Source: a virus. From it: a stretch of DNA of 42,205 bases. Position 1 is the stretch's first letter. Every line of letters begins with the position of its first letter. The notes beneath the pieces are model-generated. The model was not told the origin of the DNA, made no database searches, and saw nothing but the letters and a program-made list of their open reading frames with translations. Both the position numbers and the translations under genes were made by a program. Below, in pieces: positions 1 through 42,205 of the stretch. The stretch spans positions 1-42,205 of IMG/VR virus record IMGVR_UViG_3300009610_000048. One strand, written 5' to 3'.

Positions 1-761
1 CATGGATTTGTCTGGTTGACGTTCAGTGATGTAGACGTAGCTGTCAGGTCTACTCCACCAATGGACGGTAGGATCCGCAGTGACCCATACTGGTCAGCAT
101 TCGCCGCCACCAGGGAGTCATCCACGCTGGCTTGGTCTACTGGGGCGGTCTTACCTCGCAGGAGTAATCCAGGTGCGTCAAACTCAGAATCGAAGGGAAT
201 ATCCAGCGTCCACACTGTCCCGTAGGTCACTGGTGCGCCTGTATCTGGGTCCACCTCCACAACGGGTCGCGCTGACGTGACGGTGTCGCACGAACCGATC
301 TCGCAGACTGGCACACCGTCACCGCCAGTGATCGTCACATCACCTGAGACACTCGCGCTGTTCCCACCAGCGCTGCCGCCGTAGCCACGCGCCTGAATCA
401 CCGTGGCCGCACCGCTAATCGCGGACGCCCTGATGCGGAACATCAGGAACCCTGAATTGGCGAAGTAGTACGCCCCGTCTGCTGTGGCACTAGCATTCCC
501 ATCCGCATCATCAATGGCCGCCCATGTGCCGTTGGTGAGCGCCGTGGCGTCCTGACTCACCTCATACACAAATGTGCCAGAGGTGCCCACATTGATGTAG
601 ACACCGAAGCTCTCGAGGTCGAAGGCAGACCACCCCACGCAGTTGGTGGATGTTGAGCAATCAGATCCAGCCGTGCTGATCGTCCCTGTCGGATTGATCT
701 GCGCGCTGGCAGTAAACGGAATGCCCAGCAGTGCGAGCATCAAAACCAGTGACTTTCTCAT
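1..761 (-). CDS. Exported protein of unknown function, 3' end beyond the left edge
   Basis: The frame is open from an ATG at 761 to the window edge (about 253 codons), so the C-terminus is missing. The first ~21 residues form a classic Sec signal peptide: MRK, a hydrophobic run LVLMLALLGIPF, then TASA before QINPTG. The mature part is rich in Ser, Thr, Gly and Asp, with beta-type sequence and paired Cys (SDCSTSTNC, VCEIGSC), which fits an extracytoplasmic, disulfide-bonded protein. The ATG overlaps the stop of the preceding gene (ATGA), so translation is probably coupled to the ejection-protein genes. It is the first of the signal-peptide genes that resume at the right end of the window. The function is not recognised. 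Confidence 0.8.
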   Translation of the reverse strand, partial: MRKSLVLMLALLGIPFTASAQINPTGTISTAGSDCSTSTNCVGWSAFDLESFGVYINVGTSGTFVYEVSQDATALTNGTWAAIDDADGNASATADGAYYFANSGFLMFRIRASAISGAATVIQARGYGGSAGGNSASVSGDVTITGGDGVPVCEIGSCDTVTSARPVVEVDPDTGAPVTYGTVWTLDIPFDSEFDAPGLLLRGKTAPVDQASVDDSLVAANADQYGSLRILPSIGGVDLTATSTSLNVNQTNP

Positions 762-1531
762 TTCATCCCTTTTGCGGTGATGTGCCCGCGTTGTCTGAGC
801 GCCTTTGCCAATGTCTGTGCTTCCTGTAATGCCGTGGGTGTGTTCTGCTTCAACAGCGCCGCCATCCGATCCGCTAATCCGGGGATGCTCTCTCCCGCTT
901 CGATAATCGACCCGCCCTTGCCCATCGCATGTTTCATGGCATCAATCGGCACCGCATCTGTCGTGCGCCAGTCGATGCGCTTGGCTAACTCGTTCTCGAG
1001 GCTGGCGCTGGTCGCTGCTGATGCCTTCGGTGCGACTACGGGCGGAGCAGCACGCACCTTCGCATGTGCCGCAGCAATCATTTCGTCAATATCCAATGGC
1101 TTGCTGGCAACCGAGCTCATGCCCTGTGCGACCTTGTCGGGCTTGCCAAGACCGTGGCGGCTCAAAAATTCGTGGATCCTACCCTTGCCAACAACGCCAC
1201 CCGTAAACCCTGTTCCAGCCCCAATCACGGCTCCCACTGGCCCGCCAGTGACATAGCCGCCGATGCCGCCAATAGCAGCCTGCCCCACAGGAGACAGCGC
1301 GGCCCGCGCGAGTGGAGCCTTCAGGAATGGCAGCGCCTTACCGATGACACCACCGGCCGCCAGTGGCCCAACCTGTGTCGCCCACTCCTTGAGCATGTCC
1401 GGTGCGGCATCAGAGGCCTGCTGCAACGTGCGCTGCTCAATAGGAATCAGGTCAGGATTCGGCGGGGGAGCTGCCGCTTCCGGCTGAAAATCCGGCTGAA
1501 AGTCGATGGGCTGGAAGTCGATCTGCGGCAT
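758..1531 (-). CDS. Gly/Ala-rich candidate internal virion or ejection protein
   Basis: 257 aa. The N-terminus carries a short repeat (IDFQPIDFQPDFQP) and a Pro-rich stretch. Residues ~55-125 are a glycine-zipper-like hydrophobic region (LAAGGVIGKA, AAIGGIGGYVTGG, GAVIGAGTG). Sequences of this kind can insert into membranes and are common in podoviral ejection proteins. The C-terminal half is helical and charged. The ATG follows the upstream gene as TAATG. The role is inferred from position after the tail genes and from composition; no named family was recognised. Confidence 0.7.
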   Translation of the reverse strand: MPQIDFQPIDFQPDFQPEAAAPPPNPDLIPIEQRTLQQASDAAPDMLKEWATQVGPLAAGGVIGKALPFLKAPLARAALSPVGQAAIGGIGGYVTGGPVGAVIGAGTGFTGGVVGKGRIHEFLSRHGLGKPDKVAQGMSSVASKPLDIDEMIAAAHAKVRAAPPVVAPKASAATSASLENELAKRIDWRTTDAVPIDAMKHAMGKGGSIIEAGESIPGLADRMAALLKQNTPTALQEAQTLAKALRQRGHITAKGMK

Positions 1532-2580
1532 TACTGCTGCTTATAGCCCTGCGCCAATGCGTCCTGAAGCTGAGATGCCGGGATTGTCCCGCGCTTCCCG
1601 TCAGGCGCAATCACCGTTACACGCCCACCCGTGGCTGGCGCTGCCTCTGCCGGTGCAGCACCACCACGGCTACTCTTAATCTTGTTCGCCGCATCCCTGA
1701 GACGGGCCAGCTCAGTCGCGTACGCCCCGTGACTCTGCCTGCGGTTCTTCACCTTGGATGCGCCGCCTTGAAGGACGCCCAACTCCGGAGCGCTCAATGC
1801 GCCGAACCCAGTGGCACCTGTGCGCGACTGGTTCTTGAGTTCACCCAGTTTCTCAAGGGTCAGTAACGACTGGACGTGATCCAGGTCTTGAATCGCGTCC
1901 TGATTAAAGACGTGCGCCCCACCGGGAACCCACCCATCAAATCCACCCACCACGGACTGAGCTGCTGGCGTCAGGTTGCCTTGCTCGTCAATCAATCGAG
2001 ACAACGTCGTCAGCATGTCAGTGGCGTAGGAGTCGTCAGCATCTTCAACAGCCTTGCTGCGCCGCACGGTGTCTGCGTCCTTCGCCGCCTGTGCCGCCCG
2101 TGAGTCCTCAAACCGCTGTTGATCGCGCTTCTCTTCACTGAGCCGAATTTGGTCCTGAATGACTCGAGAGTTTTGTGAGCCCTGGCCCGCGATAGTCGCA
2201 AGGAATCGCTTGGTTTCGTCGGCCTGCGCTGCCTGTGCCGCCCTCGCCTCAGCGTTCTGTGAGGCCACATCAGCACGCGCGATGTTATTGGCCTCGGCGG
2301 TCATGAAGTTCATCGCGCGAGAGTCGGCCTTGTCCATCAGGCCCAGCTTGAACTGCTCCGCCTGTTGTGCGGTCTGTGCATCGCGGTCCTGTGCAATGCG
2401 CTGTTCCTGCTGCTGCTGGAGTGCGAGTGCGGCATCCTGACGCGCGGATTGCTGCTGCATCGCCTGCTGCTGCATGGCGTCGATCTGCGCCTGACGCTTC
2501 GCCATCGCCTGCTGCATCAGGAATTGCTCAATGGCGTTGCCGCCCAAGGCTCCAGGAGAGACGAATCGTGGTGATCCCAT
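1531..2580 (-). CDS. Gln/Ala-rich coiled-coil candidate ejection protein
   Basis: 349 aa. Residues ~15-175 are almost entirely Q, A, R, E, D and K with heptad-like spacing (runs such as MQQQAMQQQSARQDAAL), predicting a long coiled coil. The C-terminal part is more mixed, with an Ala/Pro-rich linker (GGAAPAEAAPATGG) near residue 310 and a short basic module ending in Lys-Gln-Gln. The low-complexity rod and the position between two other Gly/Gln-rich genes suggest an internal virion (injection) protein. The start overlaps the upstream stop as TGATG. Confidence 0.7.
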   Translation of the reverse strand: MGSPRFVSPGALGGNAIEQFLMQQAMAKRQAQIDAMQQQAMQQQSARQDAALALQQQQEQRIAQDRDAQTAQQAEQFKLGLMDKADSRAMNFMTAEANNIARADVASQNAEARAAQAAQADETKRFLATIAGQGSQNSRVIQDQIRLSEEKRDQQRFEDSRAAQAAKDADTVRRSKAVEDADDSYATDMLTTLSRLIDEQGNLTPAAQSVVGGFDGWVPGGAHVFNQDAIQDLDHVQSLLTLEKLGELKNQSRTGATGFGALSAPELGVLQGGASKVKNRRQSHGAYATELARLRDAANKIKSSRGGAAPAEAAPATGGRVTVIAPDGKRGTIPASQLQDALAQGYKQQ

Positions 2581-3119
2581 CAGATCCTCGGTGCCTGCTG
2601 CGTGGCCAAGATGCGCGCAAGGGCATTGCCGCCCTGATTCGGAATCTGCCGTGACTGCTGATAGATGCCCAACGCACCCATGCCCGCAGAGCCGTAGCCC
2701 AAGATGCGCTCCATGAGTCCAGGGTCCAGTAACTTCGGATCGATAGCCGCCTGCGATGGTCCACGCTGCAGCCGTGCTGAGACCTCTCGCGTGAGTGCAT
2801 CCGCACCAGAGAGTTCTGCGGCTCCCGCCTGCCTTGGAGCGACGGAATACCGTGACAACTGCGGTCTAGGGCCAGGGTTGATGGTGTGCTGCGCCGAGAG
2901 CAACCCTTGCCACGCACCCTTACGTGACTGGTTGTTCATCAACTCGCGCTCGATCAGCGCGCGTTCCATGTCCAACTGCCCACCGAACTTCTCGCCACGG
3001 TTGTGCGCTTGGCCCTGTGAGATCGCCCCAAGACCAGCACCGATAGCCCCTACAGGACCACCAGTGGCGAACCCAAGACCAACCTTGCCGATGCCTTTGA
3101 GTACGTCGAGGAACCCCAC
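2580..3119 (-). CDS. Candidate internal virion protein with glycine-zipper N-terminus
   Basis: 179 aa. The GTG start at 3119 is preceded by a strong Shine-Dalgarno (GGGAGGG, 4 nt before the start). Residues 1-35 (MGFLDVLKGIGKVGLGFATG) are an amphipathic/glycine-zipper segment very like the one in the 758-1531 product (both contain ATGGPVGA/VTGGPVGA). The rest is helical with a Gln-rich end. Podoviral DNA-ejection proteins often look like this, but no specific family is recognised. Confidence 0.68.
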   Translation of the reverse strand: MGFLDVLKGIGKVGLGFATGGPVGAIGAGLGAISQGQAHNRGEKFGGQLDMERALIERELMNNQSRKGAWQGLLSAQHTINPGPRPQLSRYSVAPRQAGAAELSGADALTREVSARLQRGPSQAAIDPKLLDPGLMERILGYGSAGMGALGIYQQSRQIPNQGGNALARILATQQAPRI

Positions 3120-3120
3120 G

Positions 3121-4110
3121 CTACCCTCCCAACCGCGCCCAGTCCTGGTCGGACTGATCTGTTGCTGTCCACTCTCTCAGCGCCAATTCGCGAAGGAACT
3201 GCTCCATCGCTTGGTCCTGTCCATACCGCTGGTTGTCCAACCCAAGGCGCTGGATGCCGTATCCCTGCTGGGCCAAGCTGTAGTCCTGTTCCTGCCCGTG
3301 CTGTGTCACGATGCGATCGGCATCCCTCGCTTGGTTATCCAGGAGTTTCAACTTCTCCTGCATCTCCAACACGGCAGAGGAATTTCCCATCTGTGTCGCC
3401 AACTGCAACGCATCCGCGACTTCATCGCGCTTGGCTTTAATCTCGCGCCCTATCAACTCGGCCTCGAATAGCCCCGAGTTCTGGCCCAACTTCTCAGCCG
3501 CCATGCGCTGCTCGCCGCCAATATTCCCGAGTGGCCCCTGCTGCTCTGCCACTTTCGCGAGATACTCCCGACTGGCCCTAGTCTGTTGGGCCACATATGG
3601 ATCCACTTGCGCCTTGATGGTCGGGTCGTCTGCGCTGACGGCAGTGCTCTGTCGCGCTCGAGCCATCAACTGCTCGAACAACGCATCACGGCCTGCCGTA
3701 CTCGCTGACTGCTGCACGGCAGGCGTTGCCGTCGTCGTCGCTGCTGCTGGTGCAGGCTGCGCGTTCCACTGCTGCGCGGGTGTGGCGTTCTTCGGCAACT
3801 GGCTGGGTGGTGCTCCACCGAGAAACCCCTGACCGCCCAACGCAGCGGCGTCACTGCTGTCTGTCAGCCCTTGACCACGCTTCTTTTCGAGATAGTCCTG
3901 CGCGAACTTACCCGGATCCTGACTCGGGTCATTCGCCACATCCGTAAAACCAGGGATGTTCTTGTAGGCGTCAGGAATTGTGGCGTAGTGATACGACTGC
4001 CGGCCGGTGTCCTGCACCCACTGGTTCGGGTTGACCGTCTGCCCACTGGCGATGCCTGGGCTCGCGCCACGCTTGGCCAGTTCCTCTTCCATGTCGTACT
4101 GGGTCGCCAT
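3121..4110 (-). CDS. Gln/Ala-rich virion-associated protein
   Basis: 329 aa. Residues ~20-90 look globular (NPNQWVQDTGRQSYHY, DAYKNIPGFTDVANDPSQDP), residues ~105-140 are an Ala/Thr/Pro linker, and the C-terminal 190 residues are a Gln/Leu-rich helical region with heptads. The stop at 3121-3123 lies 1 nt before the next start. The ATG overlaps the collar gene stop as TGATG. By order and composition it belongs with the two following proteins, probably as part of an ejectosome or tail interior. Function is not established. Confidence 0.68.
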   Translation of the reverse strand: MATQYDMEEELAKRGASPGIASGQTVNPNQWVQDTGRQSYHYATIPDAYKNIPGFTDVANDPSQDPGKFAQDYLEKKRGQGLTDSSDAAALGGQGFLGGAPPSQLPKNATPAQQWNAQPAPAAATTTATPAVQQSASTAGRDALFEQLMARARQSTAVSADDPTIKAQVDPYVAQQTRASREYLAKVAEQQGPLGNIGGEQRMAAEKLGQNSGLFEAELIGREIKAKRDEVADALQLATQMGNSSAVLEMQEKLKLLDNQARDADRIVTQHGQEQDYSLAQQGYGIQRLGLDNQRYGQDQAMEQFLRELALREWTATDQSDQDWARLGG

Positions 4111-10978: not shown

Positions 10979-10990
10979 ACACACTCCTTG

Positions 10991-11707: not shown

Positions 11708-11709
11708 GA

Positions 11710-12186: not shown

Positions 12187-12200
12187 TGTCGTGTCCTCCC

Positions 12201-13142: not shown

Positions 13143-13162
13143 CGGCCCCCTCCGCTAGAGTT

Positions 13163-13240: not shown

Positions 13241-13259
13241 GCGGTAAGGGGCAGGAACC

Positions 13260-13288
13260 CGCACTAATAGATGAAGACGGTTAGTGCG
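13260..13288 (-). other. Perfect 8-bp hairpin upstream of the capsid leader
   Basis: CGCACTAA (13260-13267) pairs with TTAGTGCG (13281-13288) around a 13-nt loop. It lies 20 nt before the three-way-junction RNA in the same intergenic gap (13143-13322). No T-run follows on the minus strand, so it is more likely an mRNA-processing or stabilising hairpin than a terminator. Confidence 0.5.
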
Positions 13289-16884: not shown

Positions 16885-17262
16885 TTATGTGTCATCAACG
16901 CGAGGCAGAACAAGTCTGGTTGGGCTCAATTTGGTGGTCAATTTGGTGATGTTGTCGGCGCCTATGTCAGGCTGGCTCTGGAGCTGCCTGGGCTCTGGTT
17001 GGTTGGTGATAGCCATGAAGCCTAGGTTGACTGTGAGGCCATTACCATTGCCTGCGCCGTTCTGTTCTTTGCTGGCGATCTCGAGTAATCGTGCATGAAT
17101 AGCAGGGTGGAGTTGGTTCTGCCTAATCAACTCTCGAGTCTGTATCCAGTAATCCTTATCAAAGAGTCGTTGGGCAAGCTCTCTGATTTCGGCTGTGGCC
17201 TTGTTGGATGTGCCTCGAGGCCGACCACCAGGGTTGCCACTGCTACCCTTCTGAAAGGCCAT
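16885..17262 (-). CDS. Small-terminase-like protein
   Basis: 125 aa, beginning MAFQKGSSGNPGGRPRGTSN. That FxKGxSGNPGGRPxG start is typical of DUF5681-type proteins found next to phage terminases. A helical region RELAQRLFDKDYWIQTREL and HPAIHARLLEIASKEQ follows, then a low-complexity tail. It probably binds DNA at the packaging site as TerS, but the family is broad. The ATG overlaps the endonuclease VII stop. Confidence 0.65.
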   Translation of the reverse strand: MAFQKGSSGNPGGRPRGTSNKATAEIRELAQRLFDKDYWIQTRELIRQNQLHPAIHARLLEIASKEQNGAGNGNGLTVNLGFMAITNQPEPRQLQSQPDIGADNITKLTTKLSPTRLVLPRVDDT

Positions 17263-17557
17263 TGATTGAGTTGTTGTTATCTAAGGCTTTCAGTTGTTCT
17301 CGGGCTCTGAGAGCGTCACGTCTTGGATGGTAGGCAGCAATCTCTGTGGTGACAAACTCTATAGGATGCCTCGGGTTGGCTTTGTGTCTGGAAATATAAG
17401 CAGCGGCTGCGGTTAGGCGCATCGCGCTGTCTTGGAACATACCTAAGCCACTATTACACCGTCGGCAGAGCCAATCCCTTGGAACACCAGTCACATGGCA
17501 ATGGTCCGCCAGGAGCTTGCCGGCACGTTGACAGATGGCGCAGCGCTTCTCACTCAC
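17243..17557 (-). CDS. Recombination endonuclease VII
   Basis: 104 aa. It has the endonuclease VII (PF02945) core: C6-x2-C9 zinc site, DHCH (18-21) with the catalytic His, TG-x-P/R turn, C31-x2-C34-N35, then SGLG. These enzymes resolve Holliday junctions and branched DNA before packaging. It starts from a GTG that overlaps the preceding stop (GTGA). Its place next to the terminase genes fits DNA debranching before packaging. Confidence 0.9.
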   Translation of the reverse strand: MSEKRCAICQRAGKLLADHCHVTGVPRDWLCRRCNSGLGMFQDSAMRLTAAAAYISRHKANPRHPIEFVTTEIAAYHPRRDALRAREQLKALDNNNSINGLSEG

Positions 17558-19174: not shown

Positions 19175-19336
19175 GTGCTCTCATACATCCTCCGCGATAT
19201 CAACCCTGACCTCTGGGCGCGTGTCAAAACGCGCTCAGCCGTAGACCAGATGCCCGTCAAAGCCGTGATCTTCAAGCTGCTCGAGATGTATGCCGAGTTC
19301 CGGATCAACATTCAGGCTGAGGGAGACTCCAAATGA
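19175..19336 (+). CDS. Ribbon-helix-helix-like small protein
   Basis: 53 aa from a GTG just after the previous stop. The sequence runs SYILRDINPDLWARVKTRSA, then VDQMPVKAVIFKLLEMY. This is a beta strand, a helix and a second helix ending in LLEMY, the pattern of Arc/ParG-type ribbon-helix-helix DNA-binding proteins. A longer frame exists upstream, but it overlaps the previous gene in another frame. Its ATGA overlap with the next gene supports this reading. It probably acts as a small transcriptional regulator or antitoxin-like protein. Confidence 0.65.
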   Translation: MLSYILRDINPDLWARVKTRSAVDQMPVKAVIFKLLEMYAEFRINIQAEGDSK

Positions 19337-19626
19337 CTACCGACTTTAATTTCGTGGAATGGTCGAAGATGCGTGAACAACAGCGAGTAGACCGCAAGAT
19401 TGAGTTGCGCGAAGCACTGGCTCATGGTCTCGCAGTGTGGCATGGCGGTTCAGTGTGGAGCACTGCCGGCGTTATCAGTCCAGCAGGACGGTTCCACTCC
19501 ACGTCCGTACATGCTCACGCGGTATTCATTGAGCCGTATCAGTCCGATCCTGCTTACCTCGCTGAGCACATCGAAAGCCGTGAGCATGGATTCGGCTTTG
19601 AAACGCGCATTATCCGCTGCGCCTAA
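19333..19626 (+). CDS. Small protein of unknown function, rightward unit
   Basis: 97 aa; the ATG overlaps the stop of the ribbon-helix-helix gene (ATGA). N-terminal helix (FVEWSKMREQQRVDRKIELR), then a beta-rich half (AVWHGGSVWSTAGVISP, HAVFIEP) ending in FGFETRIIRCA. No family recognised; position suggests co-expression with the upstream regulator. Confidence 0.6.
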   Translation: MTTDFNFVEWSKMREQQRVDRKIELREALAHGLAVWHGGSVWSTAGVISPAGRFHSTSVHAHAVFIEPYQSDPAYLAEHIESREHGFGFETRIIRCA

Positions 19627-19698
19627 CTTCATCTATTTGATGCCTGAATCCTCGGCCCAGCAAGTTTTTAACCCCGGTTATTTGACTGGAGACTAACC

Positions 19699-19851
19699 AT
19701 GAAACCTATCCTGAAGCTAACAGTTAGTGTGGACGACTACAACGCGCTACTCAGACTAGCGCATGCTGCGGATACAGGCCTCTATTCCAGATTAGCGGTA
19801 GCGATCGAACACCCTGGCCTGCAAGCGACACCCACTCAGCGCCGCGCCTGA
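19699..19851 (+). CDS. 50-residue protein, last of the rightward unit
   Basis: A short frame (ATG 19699 to TGA 19851) with a TGGAG ribosome site upstream, encoding MKPILKLTVSVDDYNALLRL, then AHAADTGLYSRLAVAIEH and a Thr/Gln/Arg tail. The first half reads as a strand plus amphipathic helix. It overlaps the converging gene at 19836 by 16 nt. Unknown function. Confidence 0.5.
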   Translation: MKPILKLTVSVDDYNALLRLAHAADTGLYSRLAVAIEHPGLQATPTQRRA

Positions 19852-20225
19852 ATACGTGGGCCTGGATCAACATCAGCCGGGGTACTCACCTCGGCTGGTT
19901 GCACATGCTCCCGAATGGCACTCAGCCTGTTGATGTTGGCGTACCACTCCCCGCCAGACTTCAGCTCGCCTATGCGGTACCACCCGTCCTTGCCGGCCTC
20001 GAGGATGATCCAGGCTTCGGCATAGCACACATCAGCCGCAGTCGCACCCTCACTCGTGACCACTATTTGACGGGTGCATTGATACACCGCATCGTAGATT
20101 TTCCCTGTTTGAAGCTTGGGTGTGCCGCCTCCGCTGGCTGCTGATGCCTCGTAGACAGAGGCAATGCCGCTAATCGACCACACCAGTAAACACGAGCTGA
20201 GCACTGCTAGAACTATGTGCTTCAT
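19836..20225 (-). CDS. Exported small protein
   Basis: 129 aa from ATG 20225. Residues 1-~24 form a signal peptide: MKHIVLAVLSSCLLVWSISG, then IASVYEASA with an Ala-x-Ala cut site. The mature domain has GKIYDAVYQCTRQIVVTSEG, a second Cys (DVCYAEAWIILEAG) and DGWYRIGEL, suggesting a disulfide-linked beta fold in the periplasm. The frame is open further upstream to 20300, but that part has no signal-peptide character. No ribosome site is clear. Role unknown. Confidence 0.6.
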   Translation of the reverse strand: MKHIVLAVLSSCLLVWSISGIASVYEASAASGGGTPKLQTGKIYDAVYQCTRQIVVTSEGATAADVCYAEAWIILEAGKDGWYRIGELKSGGEWYANINRLSAIREHVQPAEVSTPADVDPGPRIQARR

Positions 20226-20344
20226 GCGGTAAAGCGCCGGTAGATGTGACGAGCACCTACCGGCTAGGAGGCTGAGAGGCTGAGAGGAGACGCGCGGCAT
20301 GGACGGGTAACTTCACTCCCCACACCACCAGATTATTGTGGACT

Positions 20345-20370
20345 ATTTGACGGCAGAGTCAAGTCTTTTT
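20345..20370 (+). terminator. Possible intrinsic terminator, plus strand
   Basis: ATTTGAC (20345-20351) pairs with GTCAAGT (20358-20364), with one wobble pair, around a 6-nt loop. CTTTTT follows. It would end rightward transcripts coming out of the 18.1-19.85 kb unit, lying antisense beyond the 20225 gene. The short stem makes it a modest prediction. Confidence 0.4.
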
Positions 20371-20712
20371 GGTGTCGGATTGTCGGCTATTTGAGTGTTT
20401 GGTGGTCTCTACATGGTGTCGGTACACCGACCTCCATCCTCGACATCCATCGTAGTCGCAATCACATGACACCACTATTCGCCCCTGTTTACGCAGGAAC
20501 TCTACGGTCACACATGAGCGCTCAGCATATTGACGCTCAAACTCGTCAGCCGTCAATTTCTCCTTCACTCCCTTCTCCTTCCGACACTTCGCACACTTTG
20601 GATCAGGGTTGGTGTTGTAGCTCACCTTCCCGCACCCTGCACACTTGATGAGCTTTGCGCCTATCTGGGTGTCGTCATATGACACTTTCGCTTTCCCTTC
20701 AAGAATCTGCAT
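20359..20712 (-). CDS. Zinc-ribbon-type small protein
   Basis: 117 aa. Residues ~22-44 have C-G-C spacing KLIKCAGCGKVSYNTNPDPK followed by CAKC, i.e. two C-x2-C knuckles as in a zinc ribbon. A second Cys/His group (VVSCDCDYDGCRGWRSVYRH) follows. It begins ATG 20712 with no ribosome site and is divergent from the 20766 gene, sharing its operator region. Probably a nucleic-acid-binding accessory protein. Confidence 0.6.
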   Translation of the reverse strand: MQILEGKAKVSYDDTQIGAKLIKCAGCGKVSYNTNPDPKCAKCRKEKGVKEKLTADEFERQYAERSCVTVEFLRKQGRIVVSCDCDYDGCRGWRSVYRHHVETTKHSNSRQSDTKKT

Positions 20713-31472: not shown

Positions 31473-31733
31473 TTACGCCTTGTCCAAGTTACGCTTACGG
31501 GTGCCAGCCAAGACAGGCTCTGCTGATGTGCCAACCTCGTCGGCCATCCACGCCTCAACTGGGATACCTGTCATGCGCTCGATCTGGACAGCGTTGTCCA
31601 GTCCCGGTGTCCGGCGTCCGGACATCAGGTTGGAGATGTACGCTTCGTCCCACTCGAAATAGGCCGCGACGAGCCGCTGATTAAAGCCTCGGAGGCCCAT
31701 CCACTGTTTAAACTGCTCTGGTCCCGACTTCAT
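31473..31733 (-). CDS. Cro/CI-type HTH regulator, first gene of the leftward operon
   Basis: 86 aa from ATG 31733. That start is set by the promoter: a TTGACA-17-TGTAAT box ends 7 nt before it. The HTH is FNQRLVAAYFEWDEAYISNL followed by MSGRRTPGLDNAVQIERMTG. The C-terminus is short and lacks an oligomerisation or peptidase domain, as in Cro. Being the first gene under the strongest promoter of the region, it is likely a Cro-like repressor. Confidence 0.72.
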   Translation of the reverse strand: MKSGPEQFKQWMGLRGFNQRLVAAYFEWDEAYISNLMSGRRTPGLDNAVQIERMTGIPVEAWMADEVGTSAEPVLAGTRKRNLDKA

Positions 31734-31740
31734 GAGAAGC

Positions 31741-31769
31741 ATTACAATACGAGTTGGCGCGGGTGTCAA
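31741..31769 (-). promoter_or_regulatory. Strong sigma70 promoter driving a leaderless leftward mRNA
   Basis: TTGACA (31769-31764), 17-bp spacer, TGTAAT (31746-31741), one mismatch from full consensus. Seven bases then lead to the ATG at 31733, so the transcript should begin at or one base before the start codon. Confidence 0.75.
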
Positions 31770-31818
31770 CTTAATTGTTGAGGCAAAAAACTCATGCGTT
31801 GGCACTCTGCCATGCGTT
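31764..31818. promoter_or_regulatory. Operator region of the divergent switch
   Basis: Contains TCAAC-TTAATT-GTTGA overlapping the leftward -35, an exact 8-bp direct repeat CATGCGTT (31793-31800 and 31811-31818) with an 18-bp period, and the perfect dyad TGGCA-CTC-TGCCA (31800-31812). A weak rightward promoter may use TTGGCA (31799-31804) with TAATAG further on. These are candidate binding sites for the two flanking HTH proteins. Confidence 0.55.
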
Positions 31819-32529: not shown

Positions 32530-33477
32530 CTACCTAGGCAGTGGTAGAAAATCTTCAAGGAGCAGGCCAGCCGATATTTTGGTCTCAGGCGTGGTGTGGG
32601 TCTCGGTGAAGGCTCCAGCACTGATCCAGGTGCGTGGGCCATCTGGCAGCAGGGCACGAGCAATCAGGTTGTCAATCATCGGGCCGAAGTGGATAGTGGA
32701 ACTGGTCTCGCTGTTTAACTGCCACTGCTCAGCCTTGACGATGACGTAGTAGTAGGCTGGAGTTTCGATGGCCAGGATGATGTCCGAATCTGGGTGGGCA
32801 TCGCCCCAATTTGGGTGGACGTAGAGCATGGCATCGACCAGGACAGACTTGCCTGCCCACCAGCCCTGTAAGGTCACTCCCATTCTGGAGATGCCGGCTA
32901 GGGCGGTCTCATCTGACCTGACCTCGTTATAGATTCCCCTTATGTAGATGCTCAGATCATTCGTGTTTGGTAATGGCCCCCCACCAGAACTGGCGTGATC
33001 CATGATCGAGAACCACGTCCACACATTGTCTACACACGGGTGCCTGAAGTTCCAGAAGTCCGTATGGAGCCTCGCTGCCCACGCGCCCTGGTAGGGCTCG
33101 TAGGTCAGGGACATTGGCCCACCGACGTTAATCGGCAGGCTCTGGGCGTTCGTCCCTACGCAGGCCTCGCCTAGCGTGTCCTCAGACTGCACCCCGACCA
33201 GCCAGTGCCGTGTAGGGTTACTGCTAGAGCAGCCAGCGGTGTTGCTGAAGTAGTTAGGCTGGGAGGGGTCTAGGCTGGTGACGCACTGGGTAAAGCCTGG
33301 ACGCCATGACACTTGAGCATCGGCCACAGGAACGGCCAAGAGTGCTAGTATCAGTAGTGTCAGGCCGAAGGCGCAGCCAAGCTTATCCCTGCGAGTGGGG
33401 CACTGCTCGCATAGGTGCACGAATCGGCGGAGTGGATAAACGCCGAGGGATCTAGTGGTCGGCCTGACAGCTTTCAC
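32530..33477 (-). CDS. Exported protein of unknown function
   Basis: 315 aa from GTG 33477, overlapping the upstream stop (GTGA). A ~35-residue basic head precedes a strong hydrophobic signal segment, GLTLLILALLAVPVADAQ. The mature domain is beta-rich with aromatic and Cys residues (NYFSNTAGCSSSNPTRHWL, YEPYQGAWAARLHTDFW, RHPCVDNVWTWFSIMDH). The pattern suggests a lectin-like or jelly-roll fold in the periplasm or on the surface. Neighbouring lysis-type membrane genes suggest late expression. Confidence 0.65.
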   Translation of the reverse strand: MKAVRPTTRSLGVYPLRRFVHLCEQCPTRRDKLGCAFGLTLLILALLAVPVADAQVSWRPGFTQCVTSLDPSQPNYFSNTAGCSSSNPTRHWLVGVQSEDTLGEACVGTNAQSLPINVGGPMSLTYEPYQGAWAARLHTDFWNFRHPCVDNVWTWFSIMDHASSGGGPLPNTNDLSIYIRGIYNEVRSDETALAGISRMGVTLQGWWAGKSVLVDAMLYVHPNWGDAHPDSDIILAIETPAYYYVIVKAEQWQLNSETSSTIHFGPMIDNLIARALLPDGPRTWISAGAFTETHTTPETKISAGLLLEDFLPLPR

Positions 33478-34254: not shown

Positions 34255-34406
34255 CATTCCTCCATCGGCTTCGCGACTACCCAACTCTGCCCGCAAGACT
34301 TGCACGTATATTCAATGAACCGCTTGCGGTCCCAGCGCTCGATCATGTCTGGCGCATCCTCGAGGCAATGCCGGTTCTGGCAGATCGGCTCTGGCGATTT
34401 CTTCAC
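34254..34406 (-). CDS. Small zinc-ribbon protein
   Basis: 50 aa from GTG 34406, overlapping the preceding stop, with GAGG upstream. An earlier GTG at 34439 lies inside the previous gene. PICQNRHCLEDAP then EYTCKSCGQSW: four Cys in two C-x2/4-C pairs. Sits between the peptidase-like and holin-like genes. Function unknown. Confidence 0.55.
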   Translation of the reverse strand: MKKSPEPICQNRHCLEDAPDMIERWDRKRFIEYTCKSCGQSWVVAKPMEE

Positions 34407-34843
34407 GACACCCTCACCAGTAATGATCCAGGCTTCCACTTGTTGTGCGTGAAGTAGTCTTCTGGATCCAGCCAGCCCTCGCCGTTGCCTTCCATGATTC
34501 GCCCTGCCCAGAGGTAGACCGCGTGCGCGTCCTTCTTGGTTTCCACGTACAGCACGCCCGTGGCTTCCTCGACGTCGTATTCACCGCGCCTGATAGACTT
34601 GACCTTGCCGCCGAGCATCATTGCCGCCTGCTTCATGCGCTTGAACTGCATCCCGCTATGCAGGACTTCCGGGCACACAAGTAGGCAGGCGGCTAGCGAT
34701 TCCTCGTAGGTCACACCGAACATCATGGCCAGCGATGCCACCGCGCAATCGGCATTCACAGAGTTCTGGCGTACGAACTTAAAGAACGCCGGCTGGAGCA
34801 GTGGCGCAGGTTCGTAGTCCGGCTTGTCGGTCCAACTACTCAT
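34403..34843 (-). CDS. Peptidase C39-like cysteine protease fold
   Basis: 146 aa. FVRQNSVNADCAVASLAMMF gives the Gln26 and catalytic-type Cys33 of papain-like/C39 enzymes. HAVYLWAGRIMEGNGEGWLD gives His107 and a candidate third residue (Asp126). No signal peptide. C39-like proteins in phages can be structural proteases or peptidoglycan enzymes. Here it lies next to the lysis-type membrane genes, so it may be a lysis peptidase; no other endolysin candidate is in view. Confidence 0.6.
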   Translation of the reverse strand: MSSWTDKPDYEPAPLLQPAFFKFVRQNSVNADCAVASLAMMFGVTYEESLAACLLVCPEVLHSGMQFKRMKQAAMMLGGKVKSIRRGEYDVEEATGVLYVETKKDAHAVYLWAGRIMEGNGEGWLDPEDYFTHNKWKPGSLLVRVS

Positions 34844-35499
34844 GGCACATACGCCGGCAGCTCACTCGTGGACCGCCAGACCTTCGGTGGGTTGAGCCAG
34901 CCAGACTCAAGCATCTCTCGTCGCATAGCCATGTGCTGAATAACGTCACCGATGACACGCTCCTTGGTCAGCGCCACGCCTTCCCTGGTCAGCCTGTTGG
35001 CGTCTCTCCATGCCGTCTGGTTCATCTTCACTTTCGGGTGCTCCAGCCGATACATGGCCCCGATGCTTTCCTGCGACATCGACACGCCGGCCCGTGGCAC
35101 CGCGTCTGTCTTCGTGTCCTGTGCGAGCTTGTCTGAGAGCGGCGGCAGTCGATACTCAAAAAGCATCCCGTTAATCAGCGGCAAGTCATAGCCCCTGATA
35201 TAGTGCCCAGTGACCATGTCAGCTTGGTCATAGGCCTTGCGGAAGGCGTTGAGCATACGGAGGTGGTTCCCGCGCTGGCTGAGGGTCATACACTCCACCG
35301 GAGAGTCTTCACCTACCCACGCCCACGCAATGGCGGTGATTTCCTTACTGACGTAATCGCTACTGATCCAGGACAGCGGGCGGGCCTCGCAGTCGAAGTC
35401 GAGGATCCGCATTGGCCTGGACTCTATCTGCACCACCGCTGGTTCAATGGTGATATTCGACACCAACGTTGGCTTCCCAACGACGAACTCGATAATCAC
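34840..35499 (-). CDS. DnaQ/RNase H-fold 3'-5' exonuclease-like protein
   Basis: 219 aa. Exo I motif RILDFDCEARPL has Asp36 and Glu38. Exo II motif MVTGHYIRGYDLPLINGML includes Asp105. Exo III-like ERVIGDVIQHM has Asp185. WRDANRLTREG and LNPPKVW are typical of this phage family. It may trim DNA ends, degrade host DNA or proofread. It starts from GTG 35499; an ATG at 35412 (MRILDFD) would match the usual family start. Confidence 0.82.
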   Translation of the reverse strand: MIIEFVVGKPTLVSNITIEPAVVQIESRPMRILDFDCEARPLSWISSDYVSKEITAIAWAWVGEDSPVECMTLSQRGNHLRMLNAFRKAYDQADMVTGHYIRGYDLPLINGMLFEYRLPPLSDKLAQDTKTDAVPRAGVSMSQESIGAMYRLEHPKVKMNQTAWRDANRLTREGVALTKERVIGDVIQHMAMRREMLESGWLNPPKVWRSTSELPAYVP

Positions 35500-36545: not shown

Positions 36546-36815
36546 CTATTGTTTCGCTGGTGCCTTCAGTTTAGCCTGCTGGTCAACTGCCGCCTGATAC
36601 GCCTTGGCTTCCTCTGTTTTCCTGAGATATTCCAGGCGAATCATCACCACCTGAGCCGCTAGTTTGTCCACCTGTTCTCTGCACGCGGCCAATTCGTTAG
36701 CTACTGGTGTCTCCTGTGCATAGACAGAAGAGGCAAGCAAGACGAACAGAACTGTGATACCGTTGCGAACCTTGGAGGCGACTATGCGACGAATGACACT
36801 CGCGCTACTCTGCAT
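36546..36815 (-). CDS. Signal-anchored periplasmic coiled-coil protein (spanin-like)
   Basis: 89 aa from ATG 36815 (36821 possible). Residues ~19-33 are a signal or anchor segment (GITVLFVLLASSVYA), then QETPVANELAACREQVDKLA and a charged coiled coil (RLEYLRKTEEAKAYQAAVD). A membrane anchor and periplasmic coiled coil are the layout of an inner-membrane spanin. Its 5' end overlaps the divergent PEP-CTERM gene by 32 nt, and its coding region contains that gene's ribosome site. Confidence 0.58.
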   Translation of the reverse strand: MQSSASVIRRIVASKVRNGITVLFVLLASSVYAQETPVANELAACREQVDKLAAQVVMIRLEYLRKTEEAKAYQAAVDQQAKLKAPAKQ

Positions 36816-37446
36816 CTGCATCCCATCTGCGGCCTTCGCCGCACCTATCACGTTCAACTTCGCCGCTGACAACGTGTCTGGGTGGTACACCTTCGAGACC
36901 CAGACTCCAGGCGTCCGCAACCGCTACGAGGGTGAAGATGTCTACTGGGACCGCGACGGAGCCATGACCTACCTGAACGCCATCACCGAGTTCGGCATTG
37001 AGCTGGGCCAGGGTGATGCGTTCATCTCTGGGCGTGGCGGCGATCTGACCCTTGCCGTGAACCGAGGCGAACTCAGCGAATCGTCGTATTCCGCTCTGTT
37101 GCCGATTGGTCAGAACTGGCGGCTGGCCCTGAGCATCTGGAGCCCGACGAATGGCAGCTTCCTCGCCAGCGAATCCCTTGACGCGGTCCCAGACCTCACC
37201 GGCTATGACATCATCAGCGAAGTGGTCATGTTCGATGCGCGCCGGCCAGCCGAAACCGCAAGCTTTCATCAGATGTCCAGTTTCAGCCGTGCTGGGGCCA
37301 CGGACACCGCAGAACTCACCAGCGCGAGCACACTGGCAGTCGCCGCACCAACCAAGGTGCCAGAGCCGTCCACGATGCTGCTCATGGGATTCGGACTCAT
37401 CGCCGCTTTTTCAAGGGGATGTAGGTCACGTATTTATGGACGGTAA
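36784..37446 (+). CDS. Exported protein with C-terminal PEP-CTERM sorting signal
   Basis: 220 aa from ATG 36784, with GGAGG five bases upstream. Residues 1-19 are a Sec signal peptide (MRRMTLALLCICIPSAAFA). The mature part is beta-rich, of the kind seen in secreted PEP-CTERM proteins (PITFNFAADNVSGWYTFETQ, WRLALSIWSP). The C-terminus is VPEPS at 192-196, a hydrophobic segment (TMLLMGFGLIAAF), then RGCRSRIYGR. That is the tripartite PEP-CTERM signal recognised by EpsH-type exosortases, which cut near the PEP motif and release or anchor the protein at the envelope. It is the only plus-strand gene between 32.4 kb and the right edge. Its last 50 nt overlap the 3' end of the converging 998-aa gene. 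Confidence 0.85.
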   Translation: MRRMTLALLCICIPSAAFAAPITFNFAADNVSGWYTFETQTPGVRNRYEGEDVYWDRDGAMTYLNAITEFGIELGQGDAFISGRGGDLTLAVNRGELSESSYSALLPIGQNWRLALSIWSPTNGSFLASESLDAVPDLTGYDIISEVVMFDARRPAETASFHQMSSFSRAGATDTAELTSASTLAVAAPTKVPEPSTMLLMGFGLIAAFSRGCRSRIYGR

Positions 37447-40393
37447 GCAGTGACGTGCCGGTCCCGTCTGCGCCGTCCATGCAGGAAATCTCAATGTCGT
37501 TGAGTCCTGACACTGCTCCGAACTCGTCGCGATACTGAAGCAGGCCGACACGGGCCGACCATGAGTCGGTCCCTGTCGCCACAACCTGAGTACCTCCGAT
37601 GACTGGGTTTGGGTCAGTCACATTAGTCAACAGCACGCTCGTGCATTGAGCCGCCGTGAAGGTGCCCATCAGGTCTACGAGTCGGCCGCGCTGTGTCCAC
37701 GTCGCGTCAGCCGTGGGGTAGGTGAACGTCGCCACCACACTTGACGCAGGCACGTAGGAGATGACTTCGGAGACGGTCGTGCTGTTACTCGCCGCGTCAG
37801 TGAACGTGACCTGAACCGTATTGGTGCCAGAGATCAGGTCGATTCCTCCGCCTGGAATCGTCCATGTCCCGCTCGTGGACGGGAACGCCGAATTAGGCGT
37901 CACCGTCCCGTTCTCACTGGGGTTCTCCGCGACTCTCCATGTGCCTGTTGCGACACCCACGGCATCACTGAACGTGCCAGCCATCGATGTGTATGGAGTC
38001 GCCGCGACTTGCAAGACGCCAGTAGGTGTCGTAATCGCGGCTACTGGGCTGATGATGTCACCACCGCCAGCCTGCGCAGTCGCGACGAAGTTCGAAAACC
38101 CAGTAGCGGTGCCCCATGCGCCAGCCCACGCATAGCCACTGGTGAACGAGCTGGACCCGTCAGTGGCGCACGAGCCCTGCACCACACCGTTTTTCAGTAG
38201 GCAATATTCCTGACCAATCACTCGACACGACGCCACATCACCAGACACCCACGGGGTGGTGGTCATATCGATCGTGGCGAAGGTCGTTCGATTCGTGTTG
38301 ATGAACTTGGCTATGTAACTAATCGGGTTCTGTGCCGTGCAACCCATCCCTGAGTAGTTTGACCCAGACACAGACCCGCGCACGCCTTGGTAGATCCAGA
38401 CGTTATCCGTGGGTGTCACGTCGATGGTGACACTCGCCATCTGATCGTTATTGATCGCGCTGTTGAAGTAGAACAGGTTGCGCGCGTTCGTAGAACTCCG
38501 AAGGTGGTTGTTCTCCCACAACAGCGAGCCGACCATGTTGACCCAGCAATGGGGATTAGGTGTAGCCCATGACCCGCTGAGCGTGAACGTATCTAATAGA
38601 CCCGTGCAGGTACTGGACGCACGCAACACACTGACAGGGATGATGGCCGTATCCGTGTCGTCATCGATGGACGTAACCGTAATCGCGCTCACGCTCATCG
38701 ACGGCAGATCCGGTGTGCAGGCCCATGCGGTTGGCGTCCCGGTATTCGTAATGCTGCCGTCCTTGTCAGACGCGCACACCGTGCCGGTCACTGTGCCGTC
38801 AGAGTCCGCTGCGGTTCCAGCAAGGGCAATTGTGGCCGATGACGTGTAGTGAGTAGCCGCAGATGACGGCGTGGTCAACGCAGACGTGGGTGGCTCATTC
38901 GGCGTGACCGGCGCACTCCCAAGAGACCCGTCAATAGACGCCTCATTGATGTAGGTATCAAAGAGCGCACACGCCGTGTCGTCAGGCACCCCCTGAGAGG
39001 CAGGGTTCCCAGAGTAACACTCGCCAGTAAACTGAGCCCTCCACAGGGTCATGATGCGGTTGTCGCCCCAGTTGTTGTTGCGATTCAGCAGATACTGGAA
39101 ATACGCTGAATTGCCGTGCTCCTCCTCTAACTGCATCTCCGACAAGATCACGGCTATTCCCACCGGCCCCTCCACAGGCATATAGGCATAGGTGGGATTC
39201 CAGACCGCAGAGCACTTCGGGACATTCGACCAGTCCGCACACCATTGCGCCCGATTAAGCATCTCCTGTGTGAAGTCCACGCATAAGTGGGTGGCCGTGC
39301 CGTTATGACCACACGATGCTTGCAGCGTGGTATCGATGATGCCCTGCGTGATGGTGGCATACTGGAGATTCGTGCAGAACTTATTTCCAGACACGGCATT
39401 CGGAGCGATAGACATCATGTCTGCGTTGTCCAAGAGGGACGCCCCGAACACGATGAGTTCCTTCGCCGGCCAGCACCATCCAGCGATGCCGATGAAATAC
39501 TGTCCCGCGCGATACTGACTCCAGAGATCAATGGCCATCTGTGACATGCGGATGGCCAGTACCTCTTTTTGGCCGTCAGTCGCTGATTGACTGAGCGCAG
39601 CCATCGCATTCAGCGTGGCCCCCTGGATCTGTCGGCCATAGGCGATGATGGGTGTGTTGCACCAGCTACTGGGCATCGCATCCGTCCACCCATCCGCGCC
39701 CTTGCCAGCCAGAATCAGGAGCGGACCACGGAACCAGCAATTCGACTCAATCGTGGCGAGGCTAGAAATGGCCCCAGAGTTGGTGTAGTCGTGCAGGACG
39801 TTGTAACGAATCTGGCTCTTGGTCGTGATGCCACTCGGAAATGATTTATCGGAGCCAGCCCATGGTGGACGCCACGCGCAGCCATTGCCACACGCTGGCG
39901 CAGCAGAGATGATGGTGACAACATCCGCGTATTGCATACACGCGACCGAGTTCGATCCTGGCGCAATTGGGCATGAACCAGTCGGATTATTCGAGGTCGC
40001 AAACACAATCGATGACCCCGCCGCAATCGTTGCAGACGGGAACGAATCACACACGTTTAACGTGTCCGTGTAGGCGTACGACAGCGTCCGCGAATCAAAC
40101 CCCTGTAACACTTCACCGGATTTCGCAGAGGTCAACGTTGTGGGCGCATGGGGCACTGGGTTGATCTGACACCCATTCGTGAACGGCGTGACTGTGTCCG
40201 CGCCTGTGCGCGTAACAATAGTGGTCGTGCCTCCCCCGACCACCACAAACGGGTCACCATTGGCGTACGTGCCTTGCGTTGGTGAGCCCGAGAACGTCAC
40301 CGAGCCACCAGAGATCGGCAGCGTAACAACGATGTCAGCCGACGCAGGAACGGCCCACACCAACAGCGCGAGAATAATTACAACTATCTGCAT
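37397..40393 (-). CDS. Large exported multidomain protein
   Basis: 998 aa. Residues 1-19 are a signal peptide (MQIVVIILALLVWAVPASA). Residues ~195-490 are helical with repeated Trp/Cys (FIGIAGWCWPAKELIVFGAS, LSEMQLEEEHGNSAYFQYLL), possibly an alpha/alpha-barrel as in polysaccharide lyases. Residues ~600-765 resemble a ConA-like lectin domain (DTFTLSGSWATPNPHCWVNM ... SGYAWAGAWGTATGFSNFVA). Ig-like modules lie at ~505-590, ~775-875 and ~880-990 (ITTPTGVLQVAATPY, TNTVQVTFTDAASNST). It is probably surface-located and carbohydrate-interacting. It starts inside the end of the upstream gene by 10 nt. Function unknown. Confidence 0.75.
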   Translation of the reverse strand: MQIVVIILALLVWAVPASADIVVTLPISGGSVTFSGSPTQGTYANGDPFVVVGGGTTTIVTRTGADTVTPFTNGCQINPVPHAPTTLTSAKSGEVLQGFDSRTLSYAYTDTLNVCDSFPSATIAAGSSIVFATSNNPTGSCPIAPGSNSVACMQYADVVTIISAAPACGNGCAWRPPWAGSDKSFPSGITTKSQIRYNVLHDYTNSGAISSLATIESNCWFRGPLLILAGKGADGWTDAMPSSWCNTPIIAYGRQIQGATLNAMAALSQSATDGQKEVLAIRMSQMAIDLWSQYRAGQYFIGIAGWCWPAKELIVFGASLLDNADMMSIAPNAVSGNKFCTNLQYATITQGIIDTTLQASCGHNGTATHLCVDFTQEMLNRAQWCADWSNVPKCSAVWNPTYAYMPVEGPVGIAVILSEMQLEEEHGNSAYFQYLLNRNNNWGDNRIMTLWRAQFTGECYSGNPASQGVPDDTACALFDTYINEASIDGSLGSAPVTPNEPPTSALTTPSSAATHYTSSATIALAGTAADSDGTVTGTVCASDKDGSITNTGTPTAWACTPDLPSMSVSAITVTSIDDDTDTAIIPVSVLRASSTCTGLLDTFTLSGSWATPNPHCWVNMVGSLLWENNHLRSSTNARNLFYFNSAINNDQMASVTIDVTPTDNVWIYQGVRGSVSGSNYSGMGCTAQNPISYIAKFINTNRTTFATIDMTTTPWVSGDVASCRVIGQEYCLLKNGVVQGSCATDGSSSFTSGYAWAGAWGTATGFSNFVATAQAGGGDIISPVAAITTPTGVLQVAATPYTSMAGTFSDAVGVATGTWRVAENPSENGTVTPNSAFPSTSGTWTIPGGGIDLISGTNTVQVTFTDAASNSTTVSEVISYVPASSVVATFTYPTADATWTQRGRLVDLMGTFTAAQCTSVLLTNVTDPNPVIGGTQVVATGTDSWSARVGLLQYRDEFGAVSGLNDIEISCMDGADGTGTSLLTVHKYVTYIPLKKRR

Positions 40394-41148
40394 CTGCCCA
40401 CCCCAAGAAGAAGACCGTCACCGCAATTCGTGCCTGCTGCGGCGGATTGACTAATGGCGAAATGCACCGCCGCCCGCCCGTTCGATGTCACAGAAAACCC
40501 GATAGACCTGCTCCCTTGACCTGCCGTGGTCTCGAACACAGACCCTGCCACGACACTGCCTAAATCTTGTGCAGGCCCAACCGTAGAATTAGCCCCAGCA
40601 CCAATCGCGGACGATGATCCAGAAAACGCACAGGCGAACCGCATGCTGTTCGTGCCTGGGGAGCTATCATCCACGCTCTGTTCAGCAAGCGCACCGTCCT
40701 CGCTCAATAGAACAGGCGCGTTTGTGATCTGGGTGTTCCCGCCAGCAGTGACCCATCCCAAATACGCATACAGCAGATTGGCGTTGTTGTTTCTCGTCAC
40801 CCTGACGGTTTGGGTGCCGGTTGGTACCCCAGACCCAAGGAAATACAACTTCGCGAATCCGGGTTCTGACACCGTGTCTGTAGCAGTCGCACTTGCGACT
40901 GCGGGAATATTGGGGCCGCTGACGAAATCCACGCTCGTCGCATCGACCGTGGCACTTGATAAGCCGATCACGCACACAAACACCCCTTGTGACGTGCCTA
41001 TATCTGTGGCGGCAAAATCGAAAGACGCCTCTGACGCAGACGCCGTGGCCGCTACCGTGTGAGACTCGATAATCCCTATGGCGACTACTTGCGCGAAAGC
41101 AGGCCACGCCCACAGCGCCAGACACGCGGTCAGGAGTAGTCGGCGCAT
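40384..41148 (-). CDS. Exported beta-rich protein
   Basis: 254 aa; signal peptide MRRLLLTACLALWAWPAFAQ. Mature part is Ala/Ser/Thr-rich with beta strands (EASFDFAATDIGTSQGVFVC, GTQTVRVTRNNNANLLYAYL, RSIGFSVTSNGRAAVHFAIS) and three or four Cys. It reads as a jelly-roll or galactose-binding-like domain. The start overlaps the upstream stop (TGATG). Unknown role. Confidence 0.72.
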   Translation of the reverse strand: MRRLLLTACLALWAWPAFAQVVAIGIIESHTVAATASASEASFDFAATDIGTSQGVFVCVIGLSSATVDATSVDFVSGPNIPAVASATATDTVSEPGFAKLYFLGSGVPTGTQTVRVTRNNNANLLYAYLGWVTAGGNTQITNAPVLLSEDGALAEQSVDDSSPGTNSMRFACAFSGSSSAIGAGANSTVGPAQDLGSVVAGSVFETTAGQGSRSIGFSVTSNGRAAVHFAISQSAAAGTNCGDGLLLGVGRCR

Positions 41149-41672
41149 CAGAATTTGCCGTTCATCGCCGCGCGGGTAGGACCATCGGCCGCGTTGTAGT
41201 CCGCGTTAATCTCGGTGCGAAGCGTGCCAATCTGCGTATTGAGCGCGGTAATGGCCGTCTGGAGCGCACCTGATGGTGTGACACCCAGCGCCGTGAACCG
41301 CGCCAACTTGTTCTGATTGAGTTCCAATAGGGCAATCTTCGCGCCCCACGCATTGGCCGCAATCTCCACAGCCGTGAGCACGGTCGGATCGATTGGGACA
41401 ACAGTCTGCCCGACCTGCACCGCTGCCAGCTTAGACACCGCAACAGACGCATTCAGGTTCAGGAATTGCTGCCCAACCCATGTTCGGAAGCCGACAAAGG
41501 TGGACGACTGAGAGACGGTATAGGTCAGTCGTGCTTCTGCCTCACCAACCCCATTGAACGCGACGGTGATAATCTTCCCGTCGTTACCGACAATCTGATG
41601 CGTGGTGTAGTCGGCAGACGCGATGCGGCCGACGAGCAGGAACAGGACAGCAAGTACGAGAATCCGCTTCAT
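41148..41672 (-). CDS. Exported protein of unknown function
   Basis: 174 aa. The ATG at 41672 is chosen because AGGAG lies 6 nt before it; an ATG two codons upstream touches the ribosome site. Signal peptide MKRILVLAVLFLLVGRIASA. The mature part has beta (KIITVAFNGVGEAEARLTYT) then helical regions (LLELNQNKLARFTALG, QTAITALNTQIGTLRTEINA). No Cys. Function unknown. Confidence 0.72.
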   Translation of the reverse strand: MKRILVLAVLFLLVGRIASADYTTHQIVGNDGKIITVAFNGVGEAEARLTYTVSQSSTFVGFRTWVGQQFLNLNASVAVSKLAAVQVGQTVVPIDPTVLTAVEIAANAWGAKIALLELNQNKLARFTALGVTPSGALQTAITALNTQIGTLRTEINADYNAADGPTRAAMNGKF

Positions 41673-41681
41673 CGACATCTC

Positions 41682-42205
41682 CTATGGAGCAGGAACGGCC
41701 ACAATCGTGCCGTGTAATTCAGTAGTCCCACTGGTCACGAGACACAGCACGGAGTTCGTGGTCACTGAGCGCATAACCGCGCCTTGGCCACCGCCAAGCG
41801 TCAGGCCACCATTGGCCCCGAAGCCCCATCCGTCAGCAGCGGCCAGACCCGTTGACATTAGCGATGCCGTGACAGATCCGCAGTTGTCTGAGTTGTCATC
41901 AACCAAGTTGACGTTGTTCGCGCCGGTCGTCACCAGATTGATCGCGCAGATGTGCCAGTAGTTGCCGGACCCTGACAGCGACGGTGTGATCACGGTCGTC
42001 GCGGCTGACGTAATGTCTACCGTGAAATACTGCTTCGCCACGCCGGAACACGGATCCAACTGGCGCGTCCACACCAACCCAAGCACATCCACGTTGATCG
42101 TGGCATTCTCGCCATCCGTTGCCGTGCTGCCAGCCGCAGCCAATCGCACCACCGCACCTGCTCTACACAGCGCACCACCGGCTGTCTCTGCAACGTCCTC
42201 TGTGC
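41682..42205 (-). CDS. Beta-rich protein, 5' end beyond the right edge
   Basis: The frame is open to the window edge (about 173 codons), so the N-terminus is missing; an in-frame GTG at 42152 is probably internal. Contains VWTRQLDPCSGVAKQYFTVD, HICAINLVTTGANNVNLVDD and a Gly-rich ADGWGFGANGGLTLGGGQGA. This repeat-like pattern (VDDNSDNCGSVTASL) occurs in many uncharacterised phage proteins, possibly virion or secreted. Whether it has a signal peptide cannot be seen. The stop lies 9 nt before the 41672 start. Confidence 0.7.
   Translation of the reverse strand, partial: TEDVAETAGGALCRAGAVVRLAAAGSTATDGENATINVDVLGLVWTRQLDPCSGVAKQYFTVDITSAATTVITPSLSGSGNYWHICAINLVTTGANNVNLVDDNSDNCGSVTASLMSTGLAAADGWGFGANGGLTLGGGQGAVMRSVTTNSVLCLVTSGTTELHGTIVAVPAP

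Follow-up and report, generated by a model that had tools for sequence, protein, structure and literature searches.

In the phage genome analysed here, four consecutive and coupled late genes are predicted to start with Sec signal peptides, and we estimate at about 0.5 the probability that this cassette encodes exported, fibre-derived and glycan-related proteins whose target is the host envelope or matrix, as opposed to virion parts assembled in the cytoplasm. The window, i.e., the whole stretch of DNA under study, is an entire IMG/VR virus record of 42,205 bases, which appears to be a nearly complete circle. It encodes a terminase large subunit, a major head protein, a tail-collar fragment, a methyltransferase and a helix-turn-helix repressor (31473-31805, PF01381), and no tyrosine integrase was found in it. 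The gene order from the terminase to the presumed ejection genes is common to the window and a group of uncultivated phages, in two records of which the ends repeat each other over 127 and 35 bp, as in closed circles. Elsewhere on the minus strand of the window, we noted a homologue of recombination endonuclease VII shortly upstream of the terminase (17243-17557; PF02945, 52.5 bits), a stand-alone 3'-5' exonuclease domain of the DNA polymerase type (34840-35499; phrog_403, E=2.5e-11) and, near the lysis-type genes, a 146-aa protein whose similarity to C39 peptidases is below threshold (34403-34843; 16.4 bits for a cut-off of 22).

The cassette is a neighbour of the tail and lysis genes; on the circular map, it directly follows ejection-type genes and consists of a lead gene and then of genes for proteins of 174, 254 and 998 aa, all on the minus strand. 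The block directly upstream of the lead gene (four genes, 758..4110, minus strand) encodes probable DNA-ejection, i.e., internal virion, proteins, judging from its position, and its gene order is unchanged in relatives without the cassette. The lead gene is cut by the ends of the record: a 5' half (3..761, minus strand, 253 aa read) runs off the left end, and a 3' half (41682..42205, minus strand, 173 aa read, stop at 41682) enters at 42203. The two parts almost certainly belong to a single gene, since the homologues in other phages are single signal-peptide-led proteins with the same C-terminus; those of two phages described below, L042 and L050, are uninterrupted frames (461 and 794 codons) with a signal peptide at the start. 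When the record ends are joined directly, the two lead-gene frames are off by one base. The sequence-only reading had placed all these genes in one leftward run, with the 761 gene at its other end; the run holds on the circularised map, where the 761 gene is not distant from the others but is the 5' half of the first of them. Starts and stops overlap or abut along the run, as that reading had also noticed, so that the genes are coupled: the lead start at 761 overlaps the upstream stop at 758, the lead stop and the start of the 174-aa gene lie a few bases apart, the 174-aa and 254-aa genes meet in a TGATG at 41148, and the 254-aa and 998-aa genes overlap by 10 nt (40384-40393).

The lead protein starts at 761 with a 20-aa signal peptide, MRKSLVLMLALLGIPFTASA, followed by Q, and continues with a beta-rich region (of the GTFVYEVSQD type) and a CEIGSC loop; its conserved C-terminal domain has the pattern TEDVAETAGG...DPCSG...ICAINLV...VDDNSDNC...VLCLVTS. 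The next gene (41148..41672, minus strand) has an AGGAG 6 nt upstream of the start at 41672, which is favoured over 41678, and its 174-aa product has a 20-aa signal peptide, MKRILVLAVLFLLVGRIASA, followed by D and by a mature part without cysteine. No relative of it was found in viral_contigs. A resemblance by eye between the 176-aa protein and the 144-aa protein in the next slot of a third cassette-bearing phage, L048, was not supported by the comparison of the two. The third gene (40384..41148, minus strand) starts at 41148 and encodes a 19-aa signal peptide, MRRLLLTACLALWAWPAFA, followed by Q and a mature part with 4 cysteines; the 254-aa protein ends in GLLLGVGRCR and has the LLGVG motif in common with proteins in similar slots of other phages. 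This grouping across phages is based on slot, size, signal peptide and C-terminal motif, the profile comparison having aligned the signal peptide only. The motif is at the extreme C-terminus in the window (40384-40413, minus strand) and in proteins of L042, L048, L050, L055 and L056, the last of these being a protein without signal peptide (9841-11097); it could be a docking or sorting tag.

The fourth gene (37397..40393, minus strand) encodes the 998-aa protein, which starts at 40393 with a 19-aa signal peptide, MQIVVIILALLVWAVPASA, followed by D, and has 26 cysteines in its mature part. An Ig-like domain at around residues 754-883 is 31% identical to a cassette protein of L050 (E=4e-6); the protein has no match above threshold in PDB, Pfam or PHROG. 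More generally, searches of Pfam and PHROG with the cassette proteins of the window returned no tail-fibre or other family, sequence searches of PDB with three of them gave no match, and scans of IMG/VR for related proteins, using the 176-aa, 253-aa and 998-aa proteins and TerL as queries, gave nothing usable. No enzymatic domain was identified among the window's own cassette proteins. Structure prediction, proposed as a check by the sequence-only reading, was run with AlphaFold on the lead C-terminal domain (from an alignment of 5 sequences) and on residues 20-500 of the 998-aa protein, and reached pLDDT values of only 34.4 and 32.5.

Signal peptides were scored with a home-made score, which gives 4.6 to 8.2 to eight E. 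coli precursors. Three of the four cassette genes score 8.1, 7.3 and 7.8 (8.12 for the lead gene), and 0, 13 and 3 of 5000 shuffles of the respective proteins reach the protein's own score (0/5000 for the lead). The 998-aa protein fails solely for want of a charged residue before the hydrophobic stretch, which has a mean hydropathy of 3.9 and is followed by an ASA cleavage site. The N-termini are thus as the sequence-only reading described them for the starts at 761, 41672, 41148 and 40393. High scores are rare in the background: 3 of the 78 annotated genes of three phage records score at least 5, two of these being cassette homologues, and among the relatives only 1 of 783 six-frame ORFs of at least 100 aa scores at least 7.3. 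The features of Sec substrates cleaved by signal peptidase I (basic n-region, h-region, AxA site) are present in three of the four cassette genes and in the PEP-CTERM gene described below. Further signal-peptide-like genes, which the sequence-only reading had not named, occur in the window. One, with an uncertain start codon (36546..36821, minus strand), has a mature part that begins with QETPVANEL and contains 1 cysteine; it resembles, by eye only, the small signal-peptide proteins found late in the cassettes of L042 (8583-8912) and L050 (12520-12849) in size, style and position. At a second site, beside the repressor genes, a gene of uncertain true start (32530..33477, minus strand; score 4.6) encodes a mature part of 261 aa with 4 cysteines. 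A small signal-peptide-like protein at 19836-20300 (minus strand) is 66% identical over 83 aa to a protein of another genome, G017, with two cysteines common to both.

The lead family, at full length and with a signal peptide, recurs in four other phages (L042, L048, L050 and L055), and its C-terminal domain is 52-68% identical to the proteins of the first three and to a fragment on L044, a 3-kb contig of a Myxococcaceae MAG that carries the C-terminal end of a family member. One cassette gene of L044 weakly matches a tail PHROG (E=7e-5). L042, a 44-kb record with 68-bp end repeats, has five consecutive signal-peptide genes (4909-9307), followed by transmembrane and endolysin-like genes; L050, a 38.9-kb record with an integrase, has six within 7267-13264, followed by one transmembrane and one endolysin-like gene; in L048, such genes lie amid other module genes, upstream of a tape-measure-like gene. 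L055 is the GenBank record MW202554.1 (podovirus ctLwi270), in which a lead homologue (38.6% identity to the L050 protein) starts with a signal peptide after the portal gene and precedes a signal-peptide ORF, a signal-peptide concanavalin A-like lectin and a polygalacturonase-like gene without signal peptide. This block, annotated 'glycoprotein repeat', 'concanavalin A-like lectin' and 'endopolygalacturonase', is like that of the window in having a signal-peptide lead after virion genes, but its lectin and beta-helix proteins have no recognisable homology to the 998-aa protein of the window, and the beta-helix one lacks a signal peptide. The signal-peptide ORF (11231-11824, 197 aa) lies between two annotated genes of this block and is itself unannotated in the GenBank record.

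The cassette is missing at this place in five near relatives of the window phage, where ejection-type genes run straight into lysis-type genes, which suggests an accessory function. Two relatives, G003 and G007, do carry signal-peptide genes at other sites of the structural region, the tail-fibre slot among them. In G003, two consecutive ones lie between a head gene and a portal-type gene (19310-20378, parts of L029 and L030), and the second has, by our own reading, a tail-fibre-shaft-like SFASDTNTGRFR in its mature part, behind the signal peptide. The tail-collar fragment of the window (4110-4409, minus strand) is just 99 aa long, and the matching slot measures around 0.8-1.4 kb in relatives and holds a signal-peptide protein in G003 and G007; the window phage may have lost its ordinary fibre. 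A host search across 377 genomes of the phylum of the MAG returned the L044 MAG and one weak partial match without supporting gene, and the 3-kb contig in a MAG is a weak pointer to Myxococcaceae as hosts.

Mature signal-peptide proteins are richer in cysteine than non-signal proteins of the virion region (medians of 1.70% and 0.00%, Mann-Whitney p=9e-6), and 24 of the 25 intact signal-peptide proteins with any cysteine have an even number of them, against 6/15 controls (Fisher p=1.5e-4), p-values that are indicative only because members of the set are partly homologous and not independent. The odd count comes from the small gene at 36546. The class of protein could explain the richness as plausibly as the compartment. 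A more direct comparison is offered by podophage MW202647.1. Its lead homologue, found at the equivalent position between the ejection-type and the lysis genes, lacks a signal peptide and contains a single cysteine in 689 residues. Its residue 29 aligns with residue 29 of the MW202554 protein (44% identity over 87 aa, E=1e-11), and the same spot reads VECVSGC (C-x3-C) in the exported MW202554 form and AITG in MW202647. Exported and non-exported members of the family would thus differ exactly as expected from a change of compartment. The signal peptides, the enrichment and even counts of cysteines, the recurrence in independent phages and the homologue without signal peptide argue for real export of the cassette proteins, in agreement with the initial proposal of exported proteins in a late phage operon.

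The cassette has a neighbour on the plus strand that the sequence-only reading had not described, a 220-aa protein with a 19-aa signal peptide (36784..37446), whose gene overlaps the 998-aa gene tail to tail. Its C-terminus carries a PEP-CTERM sorting motif, VPEPSTMLLMGFGLIAAFSRGCRSR (37357..37416, plus strand), recognised by PF07589 (30.2 bits, cut-off 20.7) and TIGR02595 (22.2, cut-off 16); the motif was found in the window (E=2.8e-9) and in none of the 20 other phage records tested. The signal peptide scores 7.99 (0/5000 shuffles). The protein has both sequence characteristics of PEP-CTERM proteins, i.e., an N-terminal signal peptide and a C-terminus with PEP motif, hydrophobic stretch and basic tail. 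It had no tblastn match at E 1 in 50,697 phage records, and we found no report of a PEP-CTERM protein in a phage in the open-access literature. PEP-CTERM is the exosortase tag of surface proteins of Gram-negative bacteria. The presence of such a gene in a phage implies that the host is Gram-negative and possesses a surface-sorting exosortase, which would direct the product to the surface or matrix. The 220-aa protein is like those of the PEP-CTERM/exosortase system (Haft et al. 2006), for which PMC12642866 cites Gao et al. 2018 on the formation of flocs in Zoogloea, but differs from them in being encoded in a phage genome.

We thus favour a model in which the four coupled late genes would be translated together with virion genes, after which the host Sec machinery would export their products, signal peptidase I would cleave them and they would fold in the periplasm with formation of disulphide bonds. 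Their probable ancestors are tail-fibre or virion-appendage proteins in which a signal peptide took the place of the N-terminus. They also probably bear glycan-binding or glycan-acting modules, as suggested by modules of lectin-like, Ig-like and polygalacturonase-like type at the equivalent positions of related cassettes. They would most likely act late in infection on the host envelope or surface matrix, and the PEP-CTERM neighbour raises the possibility of action in lysogens. By binding or cutting surface glycans, they would hide receptors or make the matrix that surrounds the lysing cell looser.

The sequence-only reading had opposed host-surface coats or remodelling factors to virion parts that pass through the periplasm. 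This was the right pair to consider, and the observations are divided between the two: the kinship of the domains suggests an origin from tail fibres or virion proteins, and export speaks against ordinary cytoplasmic assembly. The fibre-like ancestry and the location of the genes in the late operon, just behind those for portal, ejection or tail proteins, also fit virion proteins, which would be exported, folded with disulphides and captured by particles at lysis, giving a receptor-binding apparatus assembled in two compartments. We consider this unlikely. It accords with the placement of the L048 genes upstream of the tape-measure-like gene, with the signal-peptide-less homologue of the lead protein in the same slot, with an LLGVG end, perhaps a docking tag, on proteins both with and without signal peptide, and with the signal-peptide proteins in the tail-fibre slot of G003 and G007 and the fibre-shaft-like motif of G003. 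However, tailed phages assemble in the cytoplasm, from which the inner membrane separates exported proteins, and we found no precedent in the open-access literature.

It is similarly doubtful that the genes are lysogenic-conversion morons like lambda Lom or Bor, i.e., exported proteins with which lysogens change the host surface (superinfection exclusion, adhesion, matrix). Their accessory distribution, the repressor gene at 31473-31805, the integrase of L050 and the location of the PEP-CTERM gene on the opposite strand, shared with a repressor-like gene, are consistent with this possibility, but the four-gene cassette is on the late strand and coupled to late genes, and the window lacks a tyrosine integrase. 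Host-surface action, virion parts matured in the periplasm and lysogenic morons overlap biologically, and we tentatively entertain, as an improbable variant, a receptor-binding apparatus partly moved outside: a fibre-derived, Sec-exported and disulphide-hardened set that works on the host surface or matrix, or is picked up at lysis, together with an exosortase-sorted partner. In such tailed phages, a single set of exported proteins would serve both the virion and the host surface.

It is very unlikely that the hydrophobic N-termini are uncleaved anchors or lysis parts of the signal-anchor-release type and the products lysis accessories: the L042 and L050 cassettes directly precede transmembrane and endolysin-like genes, and endolysins of the signal-peptide and SAR kinds are familiar (PMC6116005), but the cassette proteins have clear AxA cleavage sites and long cysteine-rich mature parts, and no cell-wall hydrolase family, the mark of SAR or secreted endolysins, or other lysis domain was found in them. 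Accidental hydrophobic N-termini or a host fragment joined to phage DNA are extremely unlikely; they would agree with record ends that do not join in frame, but starts and stops overlap, shuffled proteins seldom reach the signal-peptide scores, and a chimera or artefact was rejected in view of a G+C content that matches that of the remainder of the window and of the recurrence of the family in other assemblies and in a GenBank circular genome.

Returning to the favoured reading of exported host-surface proteins, two known systems come close. Lambda Lom is an outer-membrane beta-barrel with a signal peptide, encoded between tail genes (PMC12309495), and like the cassette products it is accessory, exported and encoded within the tail region of a phage, but it is a single membrane barrel expressed in lysogeny, whereas the cassette is a coupled row of cysteine-rich, fibre-like proteins; this distinction is drawn from the description of Lom, and no Pfam family matched the cassette proteins. 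Signal-peptide and SAR endolysins, such as Lys44 of the Oenococcus phage fOg44 and those of the phiKMV type (PMC6116005, PMC3765740), are also late phage products that use the host Sec, as predicted for the cassette, but they are lysins. Phage-exported single lysins and surface morons are thus already known, and what appears to be new is a coupled multi-gene cassette derived from fibres with an exosortase-tagged neighbour.

An exported multi-gene cassette that recurs in unrelated phages would be a distinct route to act on the exterior of the host, by means of virion-like proteins that have acquired signal peptides and cysteines in pairs. The existence of members with and without signal peptide in one family makes the choice between virion part and host-surface effector directly testable. 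Since similar gene rows recur in unrelated phages, there may be a scarcely documented way in which phages coat or reshape the surface of their hosts, and an exosortase-tagged phage gene would tie phages to the control of floc and biofilm matrix.
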